Shown: positions 26,197 to 39,572 of the stretch, piece by piece
How the letters are laid out: each line of letters starts with the position of its first letter
How positions within the stretch are numbered: the stretch's first letter is position 1
Source of the DNA: Rhodococcus sp. HNM0563
GTDB taxonomy: Bacteria > Actinomycetota > Actinomycetes > Mycobacteriales > Mycobacteriaceae
Assembly: GCF_012726195.1 (NCBI RefSeq)
Contig: NZ_JAASAF010000003.1
Span: 1 to 64,000, forward strand
Length of the DNA stretch: 64,000 nucleotides
Direction: 5' to 3'
The notes under the pieces: model-generated
Told to the model about the DNA's origin: nothing
The model's database searches: none
The model's input: the letters and a program-made list of their open reading frames with translations, nothing else
Program-made: the position numbers and the translations under genes

Positions 26197-27684
26197 CTAC
26201 ACCGACAGCGGGACCTTGACCGGCTCGGTCACGGGAACGGTCGGGTCCGGAGCCGGGTGCGGCATCCTGCGGCGCACCATCGCAACACCCACGTACACCA
26301 ACAGCGAGACGATCACGGCGAGGAACGTCGTCCACCCATCGACGTCGGCCGTCACGAGATCGTTCGGGATGTACAGCAGGGTGTTGTCGACGCCGTAGAT
26401 CGTGGGCGTGAGGACGAAGAACCCGACGCGCACCCCGATACCGGCGACCGCGGCGGCGGCGACGGCAACGCCGTCACCGCGCGTCCAGAACAGACCCAGG
26501 ATGAACGGCACCACCAGCGACGCAAGCAGCAGGTCGAAGGTGAGGGTGAGCAGAATGCCGGTCTGCGGGACCCGCAGTGCGACGATCGCACCGAGCGCCG
26601 CCATCGGGAGCATCGCCCAGCGAGTCGCCTTCATGACGTCCGACGACATCCCGGCGTGCTCACCACCGACCCGGAAGATGTTGCGCACCAGCACGGTCGC
26701 GGTGGACAGCAGGATTCCGCTGATCGTCGTCAGCGACGCGGTGACGAGACCCGACAGAACGAGGATCGACAGCCACTGCGGCGTGTACTGGCCGAGCAGC
26801 ACGTACAGGATCGGGGCGTCGGCGGCGCTGTCCCCCACGATGGAGACCGCGGCGAGTGCGACGAACGACAACGGGACGCACAGCAGCAGGATGCCCGTCG
26901 CTGCGGAGAAACACGCGCGTTGTGCGGCATGCGGGGACTTGGCGGAGAACACGCGCTGCATCAGGTCGATCGCGACGAGGTTGCCGAGTCCGAGCGCGAC
27001 GATCGTCGCCCAGTTGATCGCCGCGCCCTGCGCGGGGTCGGTGAGCTGACCCAGGTTTCCGATGCCGAGCCCCTCGGGGCTGGAGAACCCGGGTCCGGCC
27101 GCGACCCACAGGAGGAGCGAGATGATCCCGACCACCATGACGCCGAACTGCACCATGCCGGTGTAGACGCTGGCGAACATCCCACCGGCCATGGTGTAGG
27201 CGAGCACGAACGGGATGATCACCAGCACTGCCATCGTGTAGTTCAGGCCCAGGAAGTATTCGAGCAGGTAGCCCAGCGCGACCAGGTTGCCCGCGAGCAG
27301 GATCCCGAAGCTCACCACCGTAAGGACCGACGCGGTGATCTCGGTGCCTCGCCCGAACCGCTGCCCGAAGTATTCGGGAAGGGTCACCACTCCGGTAGCG
27401 CGTAGCTTCTTCGCGAAGAACAGGCCCACGAGGAGCACGCTCACTGCAATACCCAGTGGCATCGCAGCGCCGGCCCAGAAACCGAATGCGGCGGACAGGT
27501 CTGCGCTGCCGAGGGTCGCGTTGGAGTCGATGACCTGCGACATGAGCAGGACCGCGATGACGGGCGCGCCCAGTGAGCGGCCGGCCAAGAGGAAGTTCCC
27601 GGTATCTCCGCGAACTTTGCGAGTGGAATAGAAACCGGCCCCGAGCAGAACTACGAGGCACACGGCGACACCGGTGATGATCAT
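26197..27684 (-). CDS. Sodium:solute symporter family protein
   Basis: A 495-residue SSS-family permease with about 13 transmembrane helices. Typical blocks are FLLAGRSLGAPVIAVLLMSQVIDSNA-type TM1-2, ATGVVTLPEYFGQRFGR and the sodium-site region LVTASLTTISGILLSTATVLVRNI. It imports a small solute with Na+. It is the last gene of a minus-strand operon that begins with DUF1989 genes at 32958, so its solute is probably the substrate of that pathway (a urea, guanidine or amino-acid derivative; inference). The start ATG 27684 has a GGAG-like site; the upstream extension overlaps the oxygenase gene. Confidence 0.88.
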   Translation of the reverse strand: MIITGVAVCLVVLLGAGFYSTRKVRGDTGNFLLAGRSLGAPVIAVLLMSQVIDSNATLGSADLSAAFGFWAGAAMPLGIAVSVLLVGLFFAKKLRATGVVTLPEYFGQRFGRGTEITASVLTVVSFGILLAGNLVALGYLLEYFLGLNYTMAVLVIIPFVLAYTMAGGMFASVYTGMVQFGVMVVGIISLLLWVAAGPGFSSPEGLGIGNLGQLTDPAQGAAINWATIVALGLGNLVAIDLMQRVFSAKSPHAAQRACFSAATGILLLCVPLSFVALAAVSIVGDSAADAPILYVLLGQYTPQWLSILVLSGLVTASLTTISGILLSTATVLVRNIFRVGGEHAGMSSDVMKATRWAMLPMAALGAIVALRVPQTGILLTLTFDLLLASLVVPFILGLFWTRGDGVAVAAAAVAGIGVRVGFFVLTPTIYGVDNTLLYIPNDLVTADVDGWTTFLAVIVSLLVYVGVAMVRRRMPHPAPDPTVPVTEPVKVPLSV

Positions 27685-27703
27685 GACAGCTCCATCGAGA
27701 GGG

Positions 27704-28732
27704 TCAGACGGCAGGAGCGCTGCGTTGGGCTTCGCGTCCGAGCGAGTAGAGAGGGCGTGCATTGTCAGGAAGAGCGATCTCACCATCAGCGAGACGGCGA
27801 CGGAGATAGACGAAACTCTGGGCGGTCTGCGCGAACAGGTGCTCGCCCGCTCTTACACCGTCGTACAGCGGACCGTCTCCACCGACGAATCGATCCAGGG
27901 GTTCGACCCACGTGTCGTAGTCGACATTGAAGAAGAGCGGGAACGAGTAACGCTCTTCGGCTACCTTACGCACCCGATGTGACGTCGCTGTAAATATCCC
28001 GTTGGTCCAAATCTCCAGTAGGTCACCGATGTTCAGTACGAATGCGTCGTCGCGGTACGGAACGTCGATCCAGGTGCCCTCGGCGTTGACGACCTGGAGT
28101 CCCGGCGCCGTGGGCAACAGGAGCGTAAACACCTCGTAGTCGGTGTGGGCACCGATACCCGGCCGGTCGTCGGCACTCGGGTCGTGCGGATAGTGGATCA
28201 TCCTCAGCTGTGCGGGTGGGGTGGTGACATATCGATCGAAGAGATCCGCCGGCTCACCCAAAGTTTCGGCGAAGGCGCGCAGGATGACTCGGCCGAGACC
28301 GAAGATCGCGTCGTAGTAGGCGGTGACGGGGCCGGCGAAGTTGTCGAGCGCGGGCCACTGGTTGGGTCCGAGCAACGGATTGCCCGCAAGATAATCCGGG
28401 TCGTCGGCCGGGAGATCGATCGAGAGGTCGTAGGCCTCTTTGTGGTCGGGGGTGGCTCCCGCGAACACCTCCTCCCCTGCCGGGACATATCCACGATGAT
28501 TGGTGGAATTGCCGATGTACACGGACATTTTCGTGTCGTCCGGTTCTGCGAAGAATCGCTCGGCTGCGCCCTTCAGCTCGTCGATCAGGGTGCGATCGAT
28601 TCCGTGACCGATGATCTGAGCGAAGCCCACCTCGCGGGCTGCTCGGCCGAGTTCGTCGACGACGGCGTCGCGTTCCTCCGCGCCGACGATGAGAGCGGTG
28701 ACGTCGATGACCGGAATACTGGTGAAGGTCAC
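27704..28732 (-). CDS. Isopenicillin-N-synthase-like Fe(II)/2-oxoglutarate oxygenase
   Basis: A 342-residue oxygenase of the IPNS/2-ODD family. The DIOX_N-like N-terminus (IPVIDVTALIVG, VGFAQIIGHGID) is followed by the 2OG-FeII_Oxy core. The iron ligands are His196, Asp198 (GAHTDYE) and His252 (TSHRV), and Arg261-x-Ser263 (RYSFPLFF) binds 2-oxoglutarate. All catalytic residues are present. GTG 28732 with AGGAG upstream overlaps the stop of the preceding gene by 4 bases, so it is coupled. Some relatives hydroxylate guanidino amino acids and release guanidine; the DUF1989 and carboxyltransferase neighbours make such a reaction plausible, but this is inference. Confidence 0.88.
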   Translation of the reverse strand: MTFTSIPVIDVTALIVGAEERDAVVDELGRAAREVGFAQIIGHGIDRTLIDELKGAAERFFAEPDDTKMSVYIGNSTNHRGYVPAGEEVFAGATPDHKEAYDLSIDLPADDPDYLAGNPLLGPNQWPALDNFAGPVTAYYDAIFGLGRVILRAFAETLGEPADLFDRYVTTPPAQLRMIHYPHDPSADDRPGIGAHTDYEVFTLLLPTAPGLQVVNAEGTWIDVPYRDDAFVLNIGDLLEIWTNGIFTATSHRVRKVAEERYSFPLFFNVDYDTWVEPLDRFVGGDGPLYDGVRAGEHLFAQTAQSFVYLRRRLADGEIALPDNARPLYSLGREAQRSAPAV

Positions 28733-29487
28733 GGGATTCTCCTGGAGTCGGGGTCGAGTCGCTGCCAGTTCCGCACGACGGGATTCCCGTCGAGGTCGTG
28801 GTCGCGAGTGCCGACCCGGTCGCCGAACACCGGATTCAGGTGTGCACCGACCCGATACGGGAGGCTGGAGGCGGTGATGATCCACTGCTCGTCGCGCACA
28901 ACGCCGAGCGCGATCTCACAGTCCAAGAGCTCTTGTACCGCGCGCAGACCGGCGGCTCCGCGGATCTGCTCGAGCAAGGGACCGTCGAGCACGCGGGTAC
29001 GGCCCCGGGCGAATGCGAAGTCACCGCCCACGCGCACGAGGACTCCGGGTGCACCGGTGTCGAGGTCCTCGAGCAGGTACTCGTCGATGTCCTGTGAGGT
29101 GGCCGCGATCCGCCAGTGTTCGATGTAGTCCTCGAACATGCCTTGCTCGACGAGGGTGCCGTGGTCGAGCGCATTCAGAGCGCCGGCGTCCGGTGTCGGG
29201 CCTGCCGGGTGCAGCGCGACCGTGCGGCCCCATTCGACGTGGTCGCCGTTGTCGAACAGTGGGCCGGCGAATCCGTCCTGCTCGGCCAGCACGAGGAGGT
29301 CGCCGACACCCAGGGCACGAAGCGCGGGTGCGTCGATCTTCGGTAGCGCAGCGGGCTGTCGAAGATCGCAGTACAATGCGCGTCCTTGCAGCCAGGTGAC
29401 GCGAGTCGTCGTGTCGTCCGGATGCTCCGGTCTGCTCAGCAGGGTGCGCTCGAAACGGGTTCCCGAGAGCGACGTAGCGACTGTCAC
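28729..29487 (-). CDS. Uncharacterised protein of the DUF1989/carboxyltransferase operon (252 aa)
   Basis: I do not recognise a named family. The 252-residue soluble protein has an N-terminal segment [16 protein letters not shown], a beta-rich middle ([26 protein letters not shown]) and a C-terminal part ([32 protein letters not shown]). There is no signal peptide, Walker or metal motif. It lies between the carboxyltransferase (4-base overlap at GTG 29487) and the oxygenase (4-base overlap at its stop), so it is fixed inside the operon and very likely acts in the same pathway, perhaps as an auxiliary or small enzyme. Confidence 0.75.
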
Positions 29488-31454
29488 GCGCCGCCTTCCT
29501 TCCACCGTGCACGCTCCTGCGCGAACGCCACGGACTGGATTCGCCGGAAGGCGTCGATCGATTCGGTGTTGTCCACCAGGAACTTCCGGTGTTCGGCGAG
29601 AGAGAATGTGCCGGCGGTGATCTCCACTCCCCCACCGCGACCCGCGGCGAGGTCGGCGCGCAGGTCGAGCAATTCTTCGGGATCGACGGGGTACCAGGAG
29701 ATCCGGTCGAAGAAGCGTAGAAGCCACGGTGTGCCGTCCTCGAACGGACCGGCCTGTTGTGGATGCCGGTGGTTCCACACCTGCGTGGTGCGTCCGACGA
29801 ACTGGTAGCCGCCCGGGCCTTCCATTCCGTAGATGCACAGATATGCACCACCGATCCCGACCGCATTCTCCGGAGTCCAGGTGCGTGCGGGGTTGTACTT
29901 CGTGGTGACAAGTCGGTGCCGCGGGTCGAGCGGCGTCGCGACAGGTGCGCCGAGGTAGACGTCGCCGAGCCCGAGCACCATGTACTCGGCGGCGAAGACG
30001 GTGTCGAACACGTCGGCGACGGAGTCGAGGCCATTCATTCGGCGGATGAACTCGATGTTCCACGGGCACCACGGCGCATCGGAACGCACCCCGTGCATGT
30101 AGCGCTGAATGGCTTCACGCGTCGCGGGATCGTCCCACGACAGCGGCAGCCGCACATGCCTGCTGGGAACCTCGAGTTCATCGCTGTCGCCGAGAGTGTC
30201 CTCGACGTCCGCGAGGTGCCCGAGCAAGGCCTTGACGGGCAGCAGGTCGGGGTCGACCTTGACCTGCAGAGACCGGATGCCCGGGGTGAGTTCGAGCAGG
30301 CCGCGGGGGCGATCGGCGTCGAGTCGCTGGTGCAGTGCGTGGACGCGGGCGCGCAGACCGAGGTCGAGGGCCATGTCGCCGTATTCGACGAGCACGTTGT
30401 CGTCGCCGCTGCGCCGGTAGGTGACGGCGGTGTGGCCGTCGCGACGGGCGAGCACGCCATCGTCGCCATCTCCGCCGTTGGAGGTGACCAGCGACAACCC
30501 TGCGCGACGCGCGGTTCCGAGTGCACGGCGGGATGCGACGTGCTCCGCCCGCACCGGCACGAACCGGATCGTGTTGCCGGGGGCGAGCTGACCCAGCTTC
30601 CAACGGTCGGCGGACGCCACGGTCACCGGGCAAACGAAGCCGCCGAGGCTCGGGCCGTCGGGTCCGAGGAGGATCGGGGTGTCGCCGGTGAAGTCCAGTG
30701 CGCCGACAGAGTAGGCGTTGTCGTGGATGTTCGAGGGGTGCAGTCCGGCCTCGCCGCCGTCGGTGCGGGCCCATTCCGGTACCGGGCCGACGAGCCGGAC
30801 GCCGGTGCGGTCGGAGTTGAAGTGCACCTCGTAGTCGGTGGCGTAGAGGGTGTCGATGTCGGCGCGGGTGAAGAACTCGGGTGCGCCGTGCGGGCCCTCG
30901 GTGACGGCGATCCGCCAGTGCGTCGTGAGGGCGGGGATGTGCTCGGAGGGCACTGCAGCGCTCCGTCCCGACGGAATGTCGCCGACGACCAGCACGTCTC
31001 CGTCGCGGAGTGCGCGCCCCTCGTGACCACCGAATGTCCCGAGAGTGAAGGTGGCTGTGCTGCCCAGGAATTCAGGGACATCGAGGCCGCCGGCCACCAG
31101 TACGTACACACGCAGGCCTGGCCCCTCGATCGTTCCGACGTCGAGCAGTCCGCCCGCCGGGACCGTGACGGGCCGCCACTGCGGCACGATCTCACCGTCG
31201 ATGCGCACCGTGACCGGGGCGCCCGTCACGCACACCACAGCGTCCTCGGTGAATCGCAGGGCCGGACCGACCATTGCGGATTCGAGGCCGGATACGCCCT
31301 CGTCGTTTCCGAGAGCGATGTTGCCGAGGCGGAACGACAAGTCGTCCATCGGACCGGACGGCGGCACACCGATCTGCCAGTAGCCGGCGCGACCCGGGTA
31401 GTCCTGGACGGTGGTGAGCATTCCCGGGCGTTCGACGGTGATCTTCGTGGTCAT
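29484..31454 (-). CDS. 5-oxoprolinase/urea amidolyase family carboxyltransferase (AHS2-AHS1 fusion)
   Basis: A 656-residue protein matching only the carboxyltransferase part of urea carboxylase. An AHS2 (KipA-like) domain covers about residues 1-310 ([37 protein letters not shown]) and an AHS1 (KipI-like) domain about 350-620. That second domain includes [40 protein letters not shown] and [19 protein letters not shown], which resemble urea/guanidine carboxylase more than 5-oxoprolinase subunits. The biotin carboxylase and biotinyl domains are absent from the protein and from the window. It may act with a carboxylase encoded elsewhere, or have a biotin-independent role. Its stop overlaps the next gene. 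Confidence 0.88.
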
Positions 31455-31461
31455 GGCGAAC

Positions 31462-32112
31462 TCACACCTCCTGTGTGCGTGTGACGATCATCCGCACGGG
31501 TGTGGGATCGAAACCGTTGCACGGGTTGTTGATCTGCGGGCAGTTGGAGACGAGCACCAACACGTCGCGGTCGGCCCGGATGGCGAGACGCTTGCCGGGT
31601 GCGGAGAGCCCGTCGACGATGCCGAGGGTGCCGTCGGCCTCGACGGGCACGTTCATGAAGAAGTTGATGTTGGAGACCAGATCCCGCTTGCCGAGGCCCC
31701 ACTCGGCACCTTCGATCAGGAAGTTCTCGACACAGGCGTGCTGGTGTTTGGTGTGGTGTCCGTAGCGGAGGGTGTTGGATTCCTGCGAGCAGGCACCGCC
31801 GACGGTGTCGTGGTTGCCGACCTCGTCGCCGACCAACGTCATGAGAGGTTCGCCCTCGGCGTCGCGGAGTACCGATCCGGTGGTGAGGAACAGGTTACCC
31901 TGCCCCGCAACAGTTGCGGGCGCGCTGTACCGCGAGGTGGTGTCGTGGGCGTCGTAGATGAGGGTGTCGACGGCCTGGTTTCCATGGAGGTCGACGATGG
32001 TCAGCACGTCACCTGCGGCAACGACCGTCGACCACGGACCACGGAGTGCGACGGTGTCGTCGAGCACGACGGTTCCGGGGACGAGTGCAGCAGTATCGAG
32101 GGTTGCGGTCAT
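31462..32112 (-). CDS. DUF1989 family protein (urea carboxylase-associated, UAAP/CgdB-like)
   Basis: A 216-residue DUF1989 protein. Conserved elements are the [10 protein letters not shown] strand, the metal/catalytic block [18 protein letters not shown] (His101, Cys108), HACVENFL and [10 protein letters not shown]. In urea/guanidine carboxylase operons the paired DUF1989 proteins form carboxyguanidine deiminase (CgdA/CgdB), so a deiminase role is plausible. It is second in the operon, 3 bases after the other DUF1989 gene and 7 bases before the carboxyltransferase. Confidence 0.85.
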
Positions 32113-32115
32113 GGG

Positions 32116-32958
32116 TCAGTTCTCCATTCCGGATTCAGCAGCGGCCCAGGCGTCTTCGGTGTTGAGCACCGCGCGGTGGTACTCGGGTTCGGTGGTATCG
32201 ACCGACTCGAGTTCGCCGGGTGCGCGCCATGCGGTCACTTCGAGTGGGGTCGTGACGAACTCAGGGTGGGGATCGAGAGGGTGCGCGGTGTTGGCGATGA
32301 GCGCGATGACCGGGAGGTGGACGAGCAGATCCACATACACGCCGGCGCCGGCGGTTCCGGTGCTGGTGAGCGCACCGTCATCCTCGACGCGGATGCCGTG
32401 GAAGAACGACAGCGACGGCGGGAGGTCGCGGGGCTGCAGATCGTGCTTGGCGGCGGCGACCTTGAACAGTTCACGTCCCGCAGGGGACGACGAATGCAGC
32501 GCACCGGCGCCGTATCGCGCGGTGTTTCCTGCCGCGTGGCTCGTGCCGCACAGAGCGTCGTGGTGGCCCGAGGTGTCGGCGACGACGGTCGCGAGTACGC
32601 GTCCTTGATCCGAGAGCAGCGGATGCCCGGTGCCGAGGTAGGCCTGCCACGGCACCTTGACGGTGTCGGCGACGTTGAGCCTCTCGTGGGGTGCGTCGGC
32701 GCGGAAGAGCAGTAGATGAGCACACGCGGCGCCCTCGAGATCCCGCAGACGCAGCCGGGTGCCGCGGGCAAGTACCTTGCTCGTGTAGCGGCCGCCGGGC
32801 ACGGTCTCGGCCCAGGTCATCGATACACGGCGCCCGTTGGGCGGGGTAGGCCACGCAGACGCAGGCACGACCGGCATGCCGTCGGAGACGGTTCCGGCCT
32901 GGGCACGTGCATGGGTTCGGGCGGCGTGCGTCGTGGCTGTCGCGAGGGTCTCGGTCAT
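32116..32958 (-). CDS. DUF1989 family protein (urea carboxylase-associated, CgdA-like)
   Basis: A longer DUF1989 paralogue of 280 residues and the first gene of the operon. The conserved block DTSGHHDALCGTSHAAGNTARYG matches that of the second copy, and LSFFHGIRVEDDGAL and VYVDLLVHLPVIALIANTAHP follow. The two different DUF1989 subunits suggest a heteromer as in carboxyguanidine deiminase. ATG 32958 is preferred (GGAG-type site upstream, family N-terminus); the longer frame crosses the palindromic operator at 32982-33004. Confidence 0.85.
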   Translation of the reverse strand: MTETLATATTHAARTHARAQAGTVSDGMPVVPASAWPTPPNGRRVSMTWAETVPGGRYTSKVLARGTRLRLRDLEGAACAHLLLFRADAPHERLNVADTVKVPWQAYLGTGHPLLSDQGRVLATVVADTSGHHDALCGTSHAAGNTARYGAGALHSSSPAGRELFKVAAAKHDLQPRDLPPSLSFFHGIRVEDDGALTSTGTAGAGVYVDLLVHLPVIALIANTAHPLDPHPEFVTTPLEVTAWRAPGELESVDTTEPEYHRAVLNTEDAWAAAESGMEN

Positions 32959-32981: not shown

Positions 32982-33004
32982 GAAACTGTCGGTTGACAGT
33001 TTTC
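32982..33004. promoter_or_regulatory. Palindromic operator between the DUF1989 operon and tetR
   Basis: GAAACTGTC (32982-32990) and GACAGTTTTC (32995-33004) form an inverted repeat with a 4-base spacer. It sits 24-46 bases upstream of the first DUF1989 start, in the 174-base divergent region, and contains TTGACA on the plus strand (32993-32998). A TetR dimer binding here could control both directions. Confidence 0.6.
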
Positions 33005-33132
33005 AAGGCCCGCATCTTCGGAGGATGTCCCCGGCGTAACGAGTATGTGGCCGATGTTTCGGCTGGATGACGCAATGTTCACACTCTGATCCGGTTGGGT
33101 GGCACAGTAACTCGCTGTGCCATGGTGTTGAT

Positions 33133-33825
33133 GTGACCAGAGCAGGGCCGGGCCGACCCCGACTGACGAACCCCAGACGTCCCGGCAACACTGCCCGCGC
33201 GGAAATCCTCGACGCCGCCGCAGAACTGTTCAGTACGCGAGGTTTCGCAACCACCACGACGCGACAGATCGCCGATGCCGTCGGAATGAGGCAGGCCTCG
33301 CTCTACAACCATTTCGCGACGAAGAACGACATCCTCGCCACGCTCCTCGATGCCACGATTGCTCCGACCGTCGAGTTCGACGAGAGCCTCGACGACTCCA
33401 CGCCGGCCGCAGTGCTGTTGTGCGCACTCGCATGGTTCGACGCCGCGCAGCTGTGCGCTGGACGGTGGAATCTCGGCGCGCTGTACATGCTTCCGGAGGT
33501 CCGCAGCGAATCGTTCGAGACCTTCCGGCAGAGCCGTCTACGACTTGCACGTCGCTATCGCGACCTCGCCGTCGAGGTGCTGGGCGGAGGAGCTGACGCT
33601 GCCTGCGATCCACGCGTCGAGCTACCGTTCCGGCTCGTGGAGTCGATCATCGACATCCGCGCCGACCGGCAGGTCGACACGGCGATCGACGCGCAGCTTC
33701 CCGAAACTCTGGCGACCGCCGCACTGACCGTGCTCGGGCAGCCCACTGAGGACGTGATGGATCAGGCGTGGGCGCTCATGATCGGCGGCGATTCCGACTC
33801 GTTCGGCACGTGGGGCGTCCGGTAA
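33133..33825 (+). CDS. TetR family transcriptional regulator
   Basis: A 230-residue TetR regulator. The N-terminal DNA-binding domain is clear (ARAEILDAAAELFSTRGFATTTTRQIADAVGMRQASLYNHFATKNDIL), followed by a helical ligand domain. GTG 33133 (VTRAGPGRPRL) is chosen; an upstream in-frame start at 33067 would run through the promoter. The gene is divergent from the DUF1989-oxygenase-symporter operon, and a palindrome lies between them, so it is the likely regulator of that operon. Its stop is 5 bases from the convergent ctaD stop. Confidence 0.9.
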   Translation: MTRAGPGRPRLTNPRRPGNTARAEILDAAAELFSTRGFATTTTRQIADAVGMRQASLYNHFATKNDILATLLDATIAPTVEFDESLDDSTPAAVLLCALAWFDAAQLCAGRWNLGALYMLPEVRSESFETFRQSRLRLARRYRDLAVEVLGGGADAACDPRVELPFRLVESIIDIRADRQVDTAIDAQLPETLATAALTVLGQPTEDVMDQAWALMIGGDSDSFGTWGVR

Positions 33826-36798: not shown

Positions 36799-37521
36799 GT
36801 GCCCCGGACCAGCGAGGTTGAGGTCAGGTACGTGCAGGAATCAGGTGATCCTGTCGCGACGACCCTCGCTGCGGCAGATCCCTATCGGATGATCCTGGGC
36901 CTGCCGGTACGGAAAGTCCGCAGTCACCCCCATCAGCGCCACTATTCCGGGATGTTCTGGTCGGCCACCAACCGTGGCCACGTCCTCTACGAGAGCCGAC
37001 TCGAACTGGACCGGTTGTGGCTGGCGGACTACGCACCGGAAGTGGTGCGGATCGCCGCACAGCCGATGTGGCTGTGCGGCCCGGACGGGAAGACCATGCG
37101 TCGGCATGCGCCCGATCTGCTGCTCCAACGCACAGACGGCGGATTCACGGTCGTCGACGTCAAACCCGCCGAGTTCGCCCGTCGCGACGCAGTTGCGCAG
37201 GTGTTCGCCTGGACCGAACGACTGTGTTCGAGTCGGGGCTGGTCGTATGAAGTGTGGACCGGTGCAAACCCAGTAGTGCTGGCGAACCTCCGAATCCTCG
37301 GGGGCGCTCGTCGTAGCGAGTGGATCGACCCCGCGGTGATGAGGGCACTCGACAGCGTCGCAGTGCCCGGGATGACCCTCGACGACCTCGCCGCATCGGT
37401 GAACAGGCCCGGCTCGCGAATCGCGGTGCTGGCGAAGCTGTGGTCCGGTCTGTGGTCGGTGGACCTGACGGTGCCGCTGTCCGGACAGTCGCAGGTGTCC
37501 GGTGTAAGGAGCACGCCGTGA
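36799..37521 (+). CDS. TnsA-like heteromeric transposase endonuclease subunit
   Basis: A 240-residue TnsA-type endonuclease that cuts the 5' ends of the transposon while TnsB cuts the 3' ends. The nuclease core residues are visible: Glu65 (LYESRLELDRLW), Asp106 (RRHAPDLLL) and Asp120-x-Lys122 (VVDVKP). The C-terminal helical part (from about 165) would contact TnsC. GTG start at 36799, 19 bases after the third end repeat; GTGA overlap with tnsB. Confidence 0.85.
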   Translation: MPRTSEVEVRYVQESGDPVATTLAAADPYRMILGLPVRKVRSHPHQRHYSGMFWSATNRGHVLYESRLELDRLWLADYAPEVVRIAAQPMWLCGPDGKTMRRHAPDLLLQRTDGGFTVVDVKPAEFARRDAVAQVFAWTERLCSSRGWSYEVWTGANPVVLANLRILGGARRSEWIDPAVMRALDSVAVPGMTLDDLAASVNRPGSRIAVLAKLWSGLWSVDLTVPLSGQSQVSGVRSTP

Positions 37522-39572
37522 CCAACATCGTCGAACTACGTGCAGGAATCAAGGTCTGGCTCGACGGCTGCTCATGGGAAGTCGTGGCGCTGCAGGGACA
37601 CGATGTCACCCTCCGGTCCGGAGAGCGGATGCAGCGTGTCGCGGTCACCGAGATCGCGGCACGGGGAACAGCGATCTCACCGCCGGACGACACCGCCTCC
37701 GCTGACCCTGCTGCCGTAGTGCTCTCCTCGCTGACCGCAACCCAGATTCAGGAACTGGAAACACGAGCCGAACACGTCCGCGGCATCCTGACCGAGGTTG
37801 CGACCTCCGGCGCCGAACTCGAATCGGTGTTGGCCACCAGAGCGGCGGAACTTCACGTCTCTGTGCGCACCCTGTACCGCTGGATCGCCGGATACCGCGC
37901 GGCAGGAGTTGCCGGACTCACGGACAGTCGGATCCGTAGCCGCTACGCCACCAGTGTCGATCACCGGTGGGACGCAGCATGTGTGCGGGTGCTCGATAGG
38001 TACGTCACCGTCTCGACCCCGACGATCGGCGCGGTCATCGATGCCGTTGCCAAGGACCTGGAAGCAGAATTCGGGCCGGGCATGGTGCCGTTGCCCTCCC
38101 TGAGCACGGCATACCGGCGGGTGAAGACCTTGTCGAAGGGGCGGCACGCGTTCGGTAGCGCGAAAGGCCGGCGGTCGGTGGCGGACCGGCCCCGCGGTGT
38201 CCTCGGCCGACTGCGCGCGACCCGTCCGGGGGAGTACGTGGTGCTCGATACCACCGCGCTGGATGTGTTCGCGATGGAACCGGTCACCATGCGCTGGGTT
38301 GGGGTGGAGTTGACCGTGGCGATGGACCTGTTCACCCGCTGCATCCTCGGACTGCGCCTGACACCGCTATCGACGCGGTCCCAGGACGTGGCGAATGTGC
38401 TGTACCAGTGCATCACTCCCGCCCGCGACACCGACCCGACTGCGGATCAACTCTGGCCGTATCACGGGGTGCCGCGAAACCTGCTCGTCGGCACCGAGTC
38501 CCCGGACGGGATCTCCCAGCGACGCGTCGGGGATCTACCGGCATGTCTGCCCGAGGCGATCGTCGTCGATCACGGCAAGCAGTACCTGTCCTCTCATGTG
38601 ATCGGAGTCTGCGCCCGACTGGGTATCACCGTTCAGCCGGCGATCCCGCACAAGCCCACCGACAAACCCACCGTCGAACGCTTCTTCCGCACCCTGCGCG
38701 AATCACTGCTACAGCACCTGCCCGCCTACAAGGGCCCGGACGTGTACTCACGGGGCAAAGACGTCGAAGACGCCGCGTTCTACTACGCCAGCGAACTCGA
38801 GCAGATCATCCGGGAATGGGTGGGCCGGGTCTATCACCACACCCGACATGACGGGCTGTGCGTGCCGGAACTGCCGCGGGTGGGGTTTTCGCCGAGCGAG
38901 ATGTTCGAGATCGGGGTCGCCAAATCGGGTGGTCTGCTGTTGCCGGCGAATCCGGATCTGGCGTATGAGTTCCTCGATGTGCGTTGGCGTACGATCCAGC
39001 ACTACGGCGTCGAGGTCGACGGACTGCGTTACGACGGATCCGGGCTCACCTTGTATCGCACCACCCGTTCGCCGTATGGCGGTGTGCACGCCGGCAAGTG
39101 GCCGATCTTCGTCGACAATCACGACATCCGGCACGCCTGGTTCCAGGACCCGGACAGCCACCGTTGGCATCAGTTGGTGTGGGAGCACGGCGCTTGCCTG
39201 AACCAGCCGTTCAGCAGGGACGCCGCCGACTACGCCAAACGCATCGCCGTGCGCGAGCATCGCCACTTCGATCCCGCCGCCGCGGTACGGGATCTGCTGC
39301 TCGCGTGGAGCCGAGACGACGTCGCGACACGCCGCGACCGCGCCCTGGCCCGCCGACTCAGTGCCCACCGCCCGCATCCGGAAACCGAAGGACAGCAGTC
39401 CGGTATCGACGACGAACGCGACACTGCGTCCGTGCCGGGCGTCGCCGAGCTGCTCGACGAACTCGCCACCAGTCGAACTCAACGGTTGGAGGTGGTCGAC
39501 GACGTCGACGTATTCGACCGGTACTACGCGGAGCATCCCGACGAAGACGTGTTCGAGGTGTTCGACGAATGA
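37518..39572 (+). CDS. TnsB-like DDE transposase (Mu/IS481-type integrase core)
   Basis: A 684-residue transposase. N-terminal helix-turn-helix domains (LHVSVRTLYRWIAGYRAAGV, residues about 110-200) bind the end repeats. The rve catalytic core carries Asp244 (VLDTTALDV), Asp351 (VVDHGKQYLS) and Glu387 (PTVERFFRTL), a complete DDE triad. A Mu-type C-terminal barrel and an acidic tail (DDVDVFDRYYAEHPDEDVFEVFDE-like) follow; the tail is likely the TnsC contact. GTG start overlapping tnsA, ATGA overlap with tnsC. Confidence 0.92.
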   Translation: MTNIVELRAGIKVWLDGCSWEVVALQGHDVTLRSGERMQRVAVTEIAARGTAISPPDDTASADPAAVVLSSLTATQIQELETRAEHVRGILTEVATSGAELESVLATRAAELHVSVRTLYRWIAGYRAAGVAGLTDSRIRSRYATSVDHRWDAACVRVLDRYVTVSTPTIGAVIDAVAKDLEAEFGPGMVPLPSLSTAYRRVKTLSKGRHAFGSAKGRRSVADRPRGVLGRLRATRPGEYVVLDTTALDVFAMEPVTMRWVGVELTVAMDLFTRCILGLRLTPLSTRSQDVANVLYQCITPARDTDPTADQLWPYHGVPRNLLVGTESPDGISQRRVGDLPACLPEAIVVDHGKQYLSSHVIGVCARLGITVQPAIPHKPTDKPTVERFFRTLRESLLQHLPAYKGPDVYSRGKDVEDAAFYYASELEQIIREWVGRVYHHTRHDGLCVPELPRVGFSPSEMFEIGVAKSGGLLLPANPDLAYEFLDVRWRTIQHYGVEVDGLRYDGSGLTLYRTTRSPYGGVHAGKWPIFVDNHDIRHAWFQDPDSHRWHQLVWEHGACLNQPFSRDAADYAKRIAVREHRHFDPAAAVRDLLLAWSRDDVATRRDRALARRLSAHRPHPETEGQQSGIDDERDTASVPGVAELLDELATSRTQRLEVVDDVDVFDRYYAEHPDEDVFEVFDE

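Follow-up and report, generated by a model that had tools for sequence, protein, structure and literature searches.

Organization of the operon

A run of six intact minus-strand genes, arranged head to tail, occupies positions 26197-32958 of a stretch of DNA from Rhodococcus sp. HNM0563 (GCF_012726195.1, contig NZ_JAASAF010000003.1, positions 1-64,000; the whole 64,000 nt are referred to as the window). They encode two DUF1989 proteins, a carboxyltransferase (CT) protein lacking the biotin carboxylase (BC) and biotin carboxyl carrier protein (BCCP) parts, an MgdL-like protein, an MgdH-like 2-oxoglutarate (2OG) oxygenase, and a sodium:solute symporter (SSF) (Table 1). A TetR regulator gene is divergently oriented, and a perfect dyad, AAACTGTC-N4-GACAGTTT, sits between it and the operon, with the start codon of the first DUF1989 gene shortly downstream. 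The gaps between successive operon genes (3, 7, -4, -4, and 19 bp) match the expectation for one transcription unit. Pfam and NCBIfam searches assigned DUF1989 (twice), CT_A_B plus CT_C_D, DIOX_N plus 2OG-FeII_Oxy, and SSF, left one frame without a match, and confirmed the operon as described in an earlier reading of the letters alone (the original prediction). The ratio of nonsynonymous to synonymous substitution rates (dN/dS) against two relatives ranges from 0.07 to 0.40 over the six genes; it is highest for the MgdL-like gene (0.24 and 0.40), and the CT gene (0.07 and 0.10) is under purifying selection. On balance, the operon appears to take nitrogen from methylguanidine and guanidine under AmtR control. 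Its new part is a guanidine carboxylase without BC and BCCP, present in over half of the related genomes sampled.

Table 1. Features of the operon and its control region (window positions)
Feature	Position	Strand	Evidence
DUF1989 protein, UAAP1/CgdA-type, putative carboxyguanidine deiminase subunit	32116..32958	-	PF09347; TIGR03425 298.9 bits (cut-off 205.95); ATG at 32958
DUF1989 protein, UAAP2/CgdB-type, putative carboxyguanidine deiminase subunit	31462..32112	-	PF09347; TIGR03424 327.3 bits (cut-off 284.7)
CT-only guanidine carboxylase-type protein, 656 aa	29484..31454	-	PF02626 + PF02682; TIGR02712 positions 447-1109/1201; Asp254 = codon GAC 30695-30693
MgdL-like protein, N-(hydroxymethyl)guanidine lyase candidate, predicted HRI1/lipocalin-like barrel, D41-x-R43	28729..29487	-	
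MgdH-like 2OG/Fe(II) oxygenase, methylguanidine hydroxylase candidate	27704..28732	-	PF14226 + PF03171
SSF sodium:solute symporter, candidate (methyl)guanidine importer	26197..27684	-	PF00474
Divergent AmtR-type TetR regulator; true start possibly further in	33067..33825	+	Best solved relatives AmtR-type
Perfect dyad AAACTGTC-N4-GACAGTTT, candidate AmtR operator	32983..33002	.	Arms kept in Rhodococcus loci

The carboxyltransferase and the DUF1989 pair

The CT protein scores 966.6 bits against the urea carboxylase profile TIGR02712, and BC and BCCP must be absent from it because the match is confined to the stretch given in Table 1. Neither domain was found in the protein or elsewhere in the operon by Pfam and NCBIfam searches; the protein has the length of a CT alone and carries no added ATP-binding domain.

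Its substrate type was read from residue 254 (numbering of the window CT), where, in the available text of PMC12186494, Asp marks guanidine carboxylases and Asn marks urea carboxylases. The comparison covered 46 sequences linked to CgdAB (34 CT-only and 12 fused to the biotin half) and 12 fused sequences without CgdAB. The linked sequences represent 33 CT-only and 11 fused distinct loci; loci L049 and L088 are apparently one record, and L051 lies inside L107. Asp is found in 45 of the 46 linked sequences, the exception (L124) having Met, and Asn in all 12 fused sequences without CgdAB; in the alignment, the equivalent residue of 3va7 is also Asn. The two DUF1989 genes are adjacent, one of the UAAP1 and one of the UAAP2 type, each above its curated NCBIfam cut-off, and they are the only DUF1989 genes in the whole genome. 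Next to a guanidine-type CT protein, they very probably encode a carboxyguanidine deiminase of the CgdAB type. The CgdB-type protein additionally matches a domain of trimethylamine N-oxide demethylase.

Across 23 fused sequences, 215 alignment columns are invariant, and 166 of these are also invariant in all 33 CT-only sequences; most of the remaining 49 deviate in one or a few CT-only sequences. The retained columns and the low dN/dS values make the protein very likely a working CT and not a remnant.

A clade of CT-only enzymes

In a tree of 57 sequences, the 33 CT-only sequences form one clade (support 98/98). Fused guanidine-type enzymes stand beside this clade, at a joining support (90/94) that falls short of the starred level, and the tree is rooted by midpoint only. 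The missing BC is thus a trait of a clade of relatives and not a local accident. Neither the tree nor the column comparison includes L051. L124 (genome G425) was excluded from the column comparison and from the clade statement; it sits apart on a long branch, and its placement, if correct, means that the tree needs two changes to account for the CT-only form.

A survey of 151 genomes of the family, classified by identity and open-frame length, found a CT-only protein in 88, a fused guanidine-type enzyme in 12, and a fused urea-like enzyme in 31. Among the 88 CT-only genomes, no fused urea or guanidine carboxylase was found in 65 and a fused urea-like enzyme was found in 23. Up to eight candidates were scored per genome, and the counts hold among the matches listed, with the weakest excluded. 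G254 and G417 entered the CT-only count through matches that are broken or partial, G425 (~50% identity) was not counted, and G431 was tallied as urea-like by identity despite Asp and CgdAB. No title on a BC-less urea or guanidine carboxylase was recognized in the open-licence PMC full-text literature.

Three loci of the sample are unusual. The CT-only protein of L124 (223-3547) is divergent (49% identity) and has Met as its specificity residue; the locus also contains two DUF1989 matches and a frame resembling a permease, and its CT possibly acts on a different substrate. At L125 (6417-9522, G313), a BC-like match precedes a CT_C_D-like match, after which a CT_A_B-like match comes; in the window CT these two domains stand in the opposite order. 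At L123 (G254), the CT gene is matched in pieces only and is possibly broken or affected by a sequencing error.

Search for the biotin half

The original prediction held that BC and allophanate hydrolase are absent and proposed a search for BC elsewhere in the genome. Their absence holds for the operon only. Genome-wide, there is one full urea carboxylase above the family cut-off, on contig C12 beside an allophanate hydrolase, and there are further BC matches. No BC was found near the CT-only genes in the fetched loci by tblastn with a BC, and clustering of the ORFs of the 46 linked loci gave no BC family among the families listed in at least six loci.

Potential partners encoded elsewhere differ between the CT-only genomes. 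In G401 (one contig, 99% complete), the strong BC matches are one AccA2-type alpha-subunit and frames of pyruvate carboxylase and carbamoyl-phosphate synthase size only. In G440 (one contig), the alpha-subunits are of the AccA3 and AccA1 types, three larger frames are present, and the AccA2 type has no match; G396 has the AccA1, AccA2, and AccA3 types but no frame of pyruvate carboxylase size. The alpha-subunit classes were sorted by tblastn against genes of the window genome (G000), neighborhood, and frame length, with no family call, and the labels AccA1, AccA2, AccA3, TB7.3, pyruvate carboxylase, and carbamoyl-phosphate synthase on individual genes are partly our own assumption.

Each candidate for a dedicated partner was rejected in this way. 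The AccA3 type is absent in G401 (all 17 candidates scored). At E 1e-170, 129 of the 151 genomes match the AccA2 type (C53), but, among the genomes named, the CT-only genomes G440, G450, G021, G254, G474, and G483 do not; seven candidates were scored per genome, and the absence in G440 agrees with the scoring of all candidates. For a TB7.3-like small carrier, 129 of 151 genomes match at E 1e-12, a count inflated by some carrier domains that belong to alpha-subunits, and there is no match in the CT-only genomes G401, G420, G191, G238, G451, and G461. Pyruvate carboxylase fails in G396, and a full urea carboxylase is no obligate donor, given the 65 CT-only genomes in which none was found. The best separate BCCP match of the window genome to the urea carboxylase model is a stand-alone 71-aa biotin carrier-like protein (G000:C1:234019-234231), which we take to be TB7.3-like.

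With no BC-BCCP class common to G401, G440, and G396, a single conserved BC partner is unlikely, which leaves lineage-variable sharing of alpha-subunits or a biotin-free reaction. Supply of carboxybiotin in trans by acyl-CoA carboxylase alpha-subunits has, in our estimate, an even chance of being correct. The CTs of acyl-CoA carboxylases belong to a different family from the urea/guanidine CT. Mycobacterial AccA3 is described as common to three acyl-CoA carboxylase complexes (PMC11001197), and pull-down experiments in Mycobacterium smegmatis paired AccA1 with its AccD1 and AccA2 with its AccD2 (PMC4347857). This pairing, together with the difference in CT family, leaves alpha-subunit docking to this CT unproven and, like the lack of a common class, tells against supply in trans. 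A CT that carboxylates guanidine without biotin, through an activated carboxyl group such as carboxyphosphate, would explain why neither a BC class nor a stand-alone BCCP is common to the CT-only genomes checked. CT_A_B/CT_C_D homologues of this kind exist: PxpB and PxpC work without biotin as part of ATP-dependent 5-oxoprolinases. Such a reaction is nevertheless unlikely, since the nearest tree neighbors of the CT-only clade are fused biotin enzymes (at the support given above), most invariant residues of the fused enzymes are retained, and there is no extra ATP-binding domain. Slightly less likely again is its widest form, in which the large actinobacterial guanidine carboxylase clade is biotin-free, the lone CT using guanidine, ATP, and bicarbonate or another donor without BC or carrier, and the AmtR-type repressor senses (methyl)guanidine. 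The shared domains do not make the protein a 5-oxoprolinase, the identity that, in the original prediction, would have undone the guanidine reading. It scores only 124.3 bits against PxpC (cut-off 500) and 37.4 against PxpB (cut-off 145.55), far below its urea carboxylase score. The operon has no PxpA; a separate PxpA/B/C-like set lies on contig C33, its PxpA-like member above the cut-off and its PxpB (134.7) and PxpC (213.1) members below theirs, and the window CT falls further below the Pxp cut-offs than this set. With Asp254 and the linkage to CgdAB added, a 5-oxoprolinase-type enzyme is extremely improbable. In this strain, the CT could also borrow BC and BCCP from the urea carboxylase on C12, which is complete and stands with its allophanate hydrolase and a UrtA-type gene, and 23 of the 88 CT-only genomes likewise have a fused urea-like enzyme. 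The 65 genomes without any fused enzyme mean that such borrowing is no general answer, and it is improbable here too.

The MgdH/MgdL-like pair

The MgdL-like protein has no Pfam or NCBIfam match at E 0.001 and is predicted to form an HRI1/lipocalin-like beta-barrel. Its D41 and R43 are invariant in 27 of 27 sequences, and the pattern D.R.P is present in 121 of 121. Judged by spacing, they would be equivalent to D49 and R51, the conserved Asp-x-Arg of Vreelandella boliviensis MgdL (PMC12508155). In the MgdH-like oxygenase, H196, D198, H252, and R261 are invariant in all 121 sequences; these are presumably the metal and 2OG ligands. The two genes are adjacent in 10 of the 12 distinct loci examined. 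Five of the 12 (window, L049, L051, L053, and L090) combine them with CgdAB and a CT or fused carboxylase, and three are partial (the contig of L050 begins inside the CT). Among the loci with the pair and CgdAB, G297 and G392 carry full-length fused carboxylases. No Vreelandella or Halomonas name appeared among the matches listed in the protein and plasmid searches. The conserved residues and gene neighborhood make it likely that the pair demethylates methylguanidine. A single 865-aa open frame at L103 (14223-16820, G410) covers both an amino acid permease domain and an MgdL-like stretch, a possible fusion or a misread start.

Import, allophanate hydrolysis, and regulation

SSF homologues lie beside CgdAB/CT in 14 of the 46 linked loci and also occur in loci without the MgdH/MgdL-like pair (e.g. 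L089, L100, L102, L110, and L113). That the symporter imports (methyl)guanidine is a moderately favored assignment.

The operon has no allophanate hydrolase. The window genome has one above the family cut-off, on C12, where the full urea carboxylase and the UrtA-type gene are its neighbors. A hydrolase is found near the CT gene in 19 of 34 CT-only loci. Of 14 CT-only genomes searched (G296 was left out as not CT-only), 13 have an allophanate hydrolase above the cut-off, which in 10 of these genomes does not lie near the CT gene. Six hydrolase neighborhoods were read. Those of G440 and G460 resemble C12 with the urea carboxylase gene absent. In G317 (L227, 8249-8952), a urea carboxylase remnant (~168 residues of BC and a BCCP stretch, with no CT match) lies beside an intact allophanate hydrolase. 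A hydrolase without urea carboxylase in G440 and G460, or beside a remnant in G317, fits its retention for the guanidine route.

The best solved relatives of the TetR regulator are 5e57 (AmtR), 5dxz/5dy1/5dy0, 5mqq, and 6gy3 (AmtR). The Corynebacterium glutamicum AmtR box is tttCTATN6AtAGat/aA (PMC2723105), and the window dyad presents CTGT and ACAG at AmtR-box spacing, with one base different in each core half-site. Its arms are aligned in four of four Rhodococcus loci with an altered spacer (one mismatch in one arm of L088). A scan of the 64 kb with up to three mismatches found one site versus 0.04 expected. With up to four mismatches and no shuffle control, 33 of the 46 linked loci had at least one match and 13 had none; many matches adjoin the TetR or CgdA gene, and some are distant. 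The regulator's relatives and the dyad make AmtR-type control of the operon highly probable. Control by a guanidine riboswitch was rejected: in the window, all Rfam families stay below their gathering scores, and the known guanidine riboswitches are therefore absent there.

Proposed pathway

In the proposed pathway, the SSF symporter would import (methyl)guanidine, the MgdH-like 2OG oxygenase would hydroxylate the methyl group of methylguanidine, and the MgdL-like protein, as a candidate N-(hydroxymethyl)guanidine lyase, would complete the demethylation to guanidine. The CT would carboxylate guanidine, its carboxybiotin coming in trans from an acyl-CoA carboxylase alpha-subunit (BC-BCCP) that may differ between lineages. 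The DUF1989 pair would then deiminate carboxyguanidine to allophanate, and the hydrolase encoded on C12 would split allophanate, the end product being ammonia. In our view, the original prediction was right that a guanidino compound is imported, hydroxylated by a 2OG-dependent enzyme, and deiminated. Its claim of a possibly new pathway falls, since the methylguanidine route has already been published for V. boliviensis (PMC12508155). The rivals for single steps overlap with this explanation, and their likelihoods do not sum to one.

The natural substrate of the oxygenase and the barrel protein might, instead of methylguanidine, be a different N-alkylguanidine or guanidino compound, such as dimethylguanidine or a compound resembling creatine or arginine. 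Guanidine-releasing 2OG oxygenases for arginine and homoarginine are known (PMC12508155), and the original prediction pointed to this fold; its 2OG hydroxylation stands, whereas release of guanidine from an amino acid is less likely than demethylation of methylguanidine with the MgdL-like protein. A dedicated lyase would suit N-(hydroxymethyl)guanidine, a stable hemiaminal, and another substrate has only a small chance of being the true one. Several observations favor that alternative or otherwise count against a methylguanidine operon. The MgdH/MgdL-like pair occurs without CgdAB in the fetched stretch at four of the 12 loci (L052 and L055-L057), the MgdL matches of L055-L057 being partial at 31-35% identity. 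The 12-locus count leaves out five further weak matches in G007, G034, G095, G203, and G321, and likeness to MgdH and MgdL of V. boliviensis (A0A265DXP8/A0A265DXW6) was judged from their published description. About 10 of the 49 CT columns noted above are relaxed in many CT-only sequences (e.g. 127, 154, 405, 636, 640, and 644). G007 has CgdAB and the CT, yet no allophanate hydrolase match, and the window has no guanidine riboswitch.

Neighboring genes

At 36799-39572 of the window, a TnsA-like N-terminal domain (25.5 bits, cut-off 26.5) is found with a protein that has a helix-turn-helix and weak integrase-core matches; a Tn7-like element near the operon is possible. After this region lie a P-type ATPase gene and an ArsA-type gene.

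Relation to known systems and implications

The methylguanidine-demethylating pair MgdL/MgdH of V. boliviensis was published in October 2025 (PMC12508155). Its operon, as far as the available text describes it, resembles that of Rhodococcus in uniting CgdAB, a guanidine carboxylase CT, a 2OG dioxygenase, and a barrel protein with Asp-x-Arg. The Rhodococcus system differs in a carboxylase without BC and BCCP, an allophanate hydrolase on another contig, an SSF importer in place of an ABC transporter, and an AmtR-type repressor and site in place of two guanidine riboswitches. Urea/guanidine carboxylases (TIGR02712; 3va7) share with the window protein a CT of over 650 residues and the Asp/Asn specificity site, but the window protein lacks their BC and BCCP. 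Separate CTs served by a BC-BCCP alpha-subunit are familiar from mycobacterial acyl-CoA carboxylases, where AccA3 is shared between several CTs and AccA1 and AccA2 have their own; the available portions of these reports list partners without mention of a guanidine CT (PMC4347857, PMC11001197).

The M. smegmatis AmtR regulon msmeg_2184-2189 likewise combines an AmtR-type TetR regulator with two unknown frames beside a 'urea carboxylase' (PMC4222082). Operons of this type contain a permease, the two frames, the 'urea carboxylase', and an amidase, co-occur in ten actinobacterial genomes, and are viewed in the accessible text of that report as urea or amino acid metabolism, unlike the guanidine reading here. 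We infer that msmeg_2184-2189 is a guanidine pathway. The M. smegmatis AmtR is not released by urea or amino acids, and the portion of the report consulted states that its effector was not found (PMC4222082); no title on guanidine as an AmtR effector was recognized in the open-licence PMC full-text literature. If the AmtR-linked operons are guanidine operons, guanidine and methylguanidine become candidates for the natural effector.

The demethylation route has been known since 2025 from halophilic proteobacteria, and what is probably the same gene pair is now found in Rhodococcus and other actinobacteria, where its control is apparently different. (Methyl)guanidine is also a candidate effector for the mycobacterial AmtR. 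The CgdAB-linked guanidine-type CT without a biotin half raises the question of its carboxyl source: sharing of an alpha-subunit would tie nitrogen scavenging and lipid synthesis to one carboxybiotin pool, and without such sharing the protein would represent a new kind of carboxylase.

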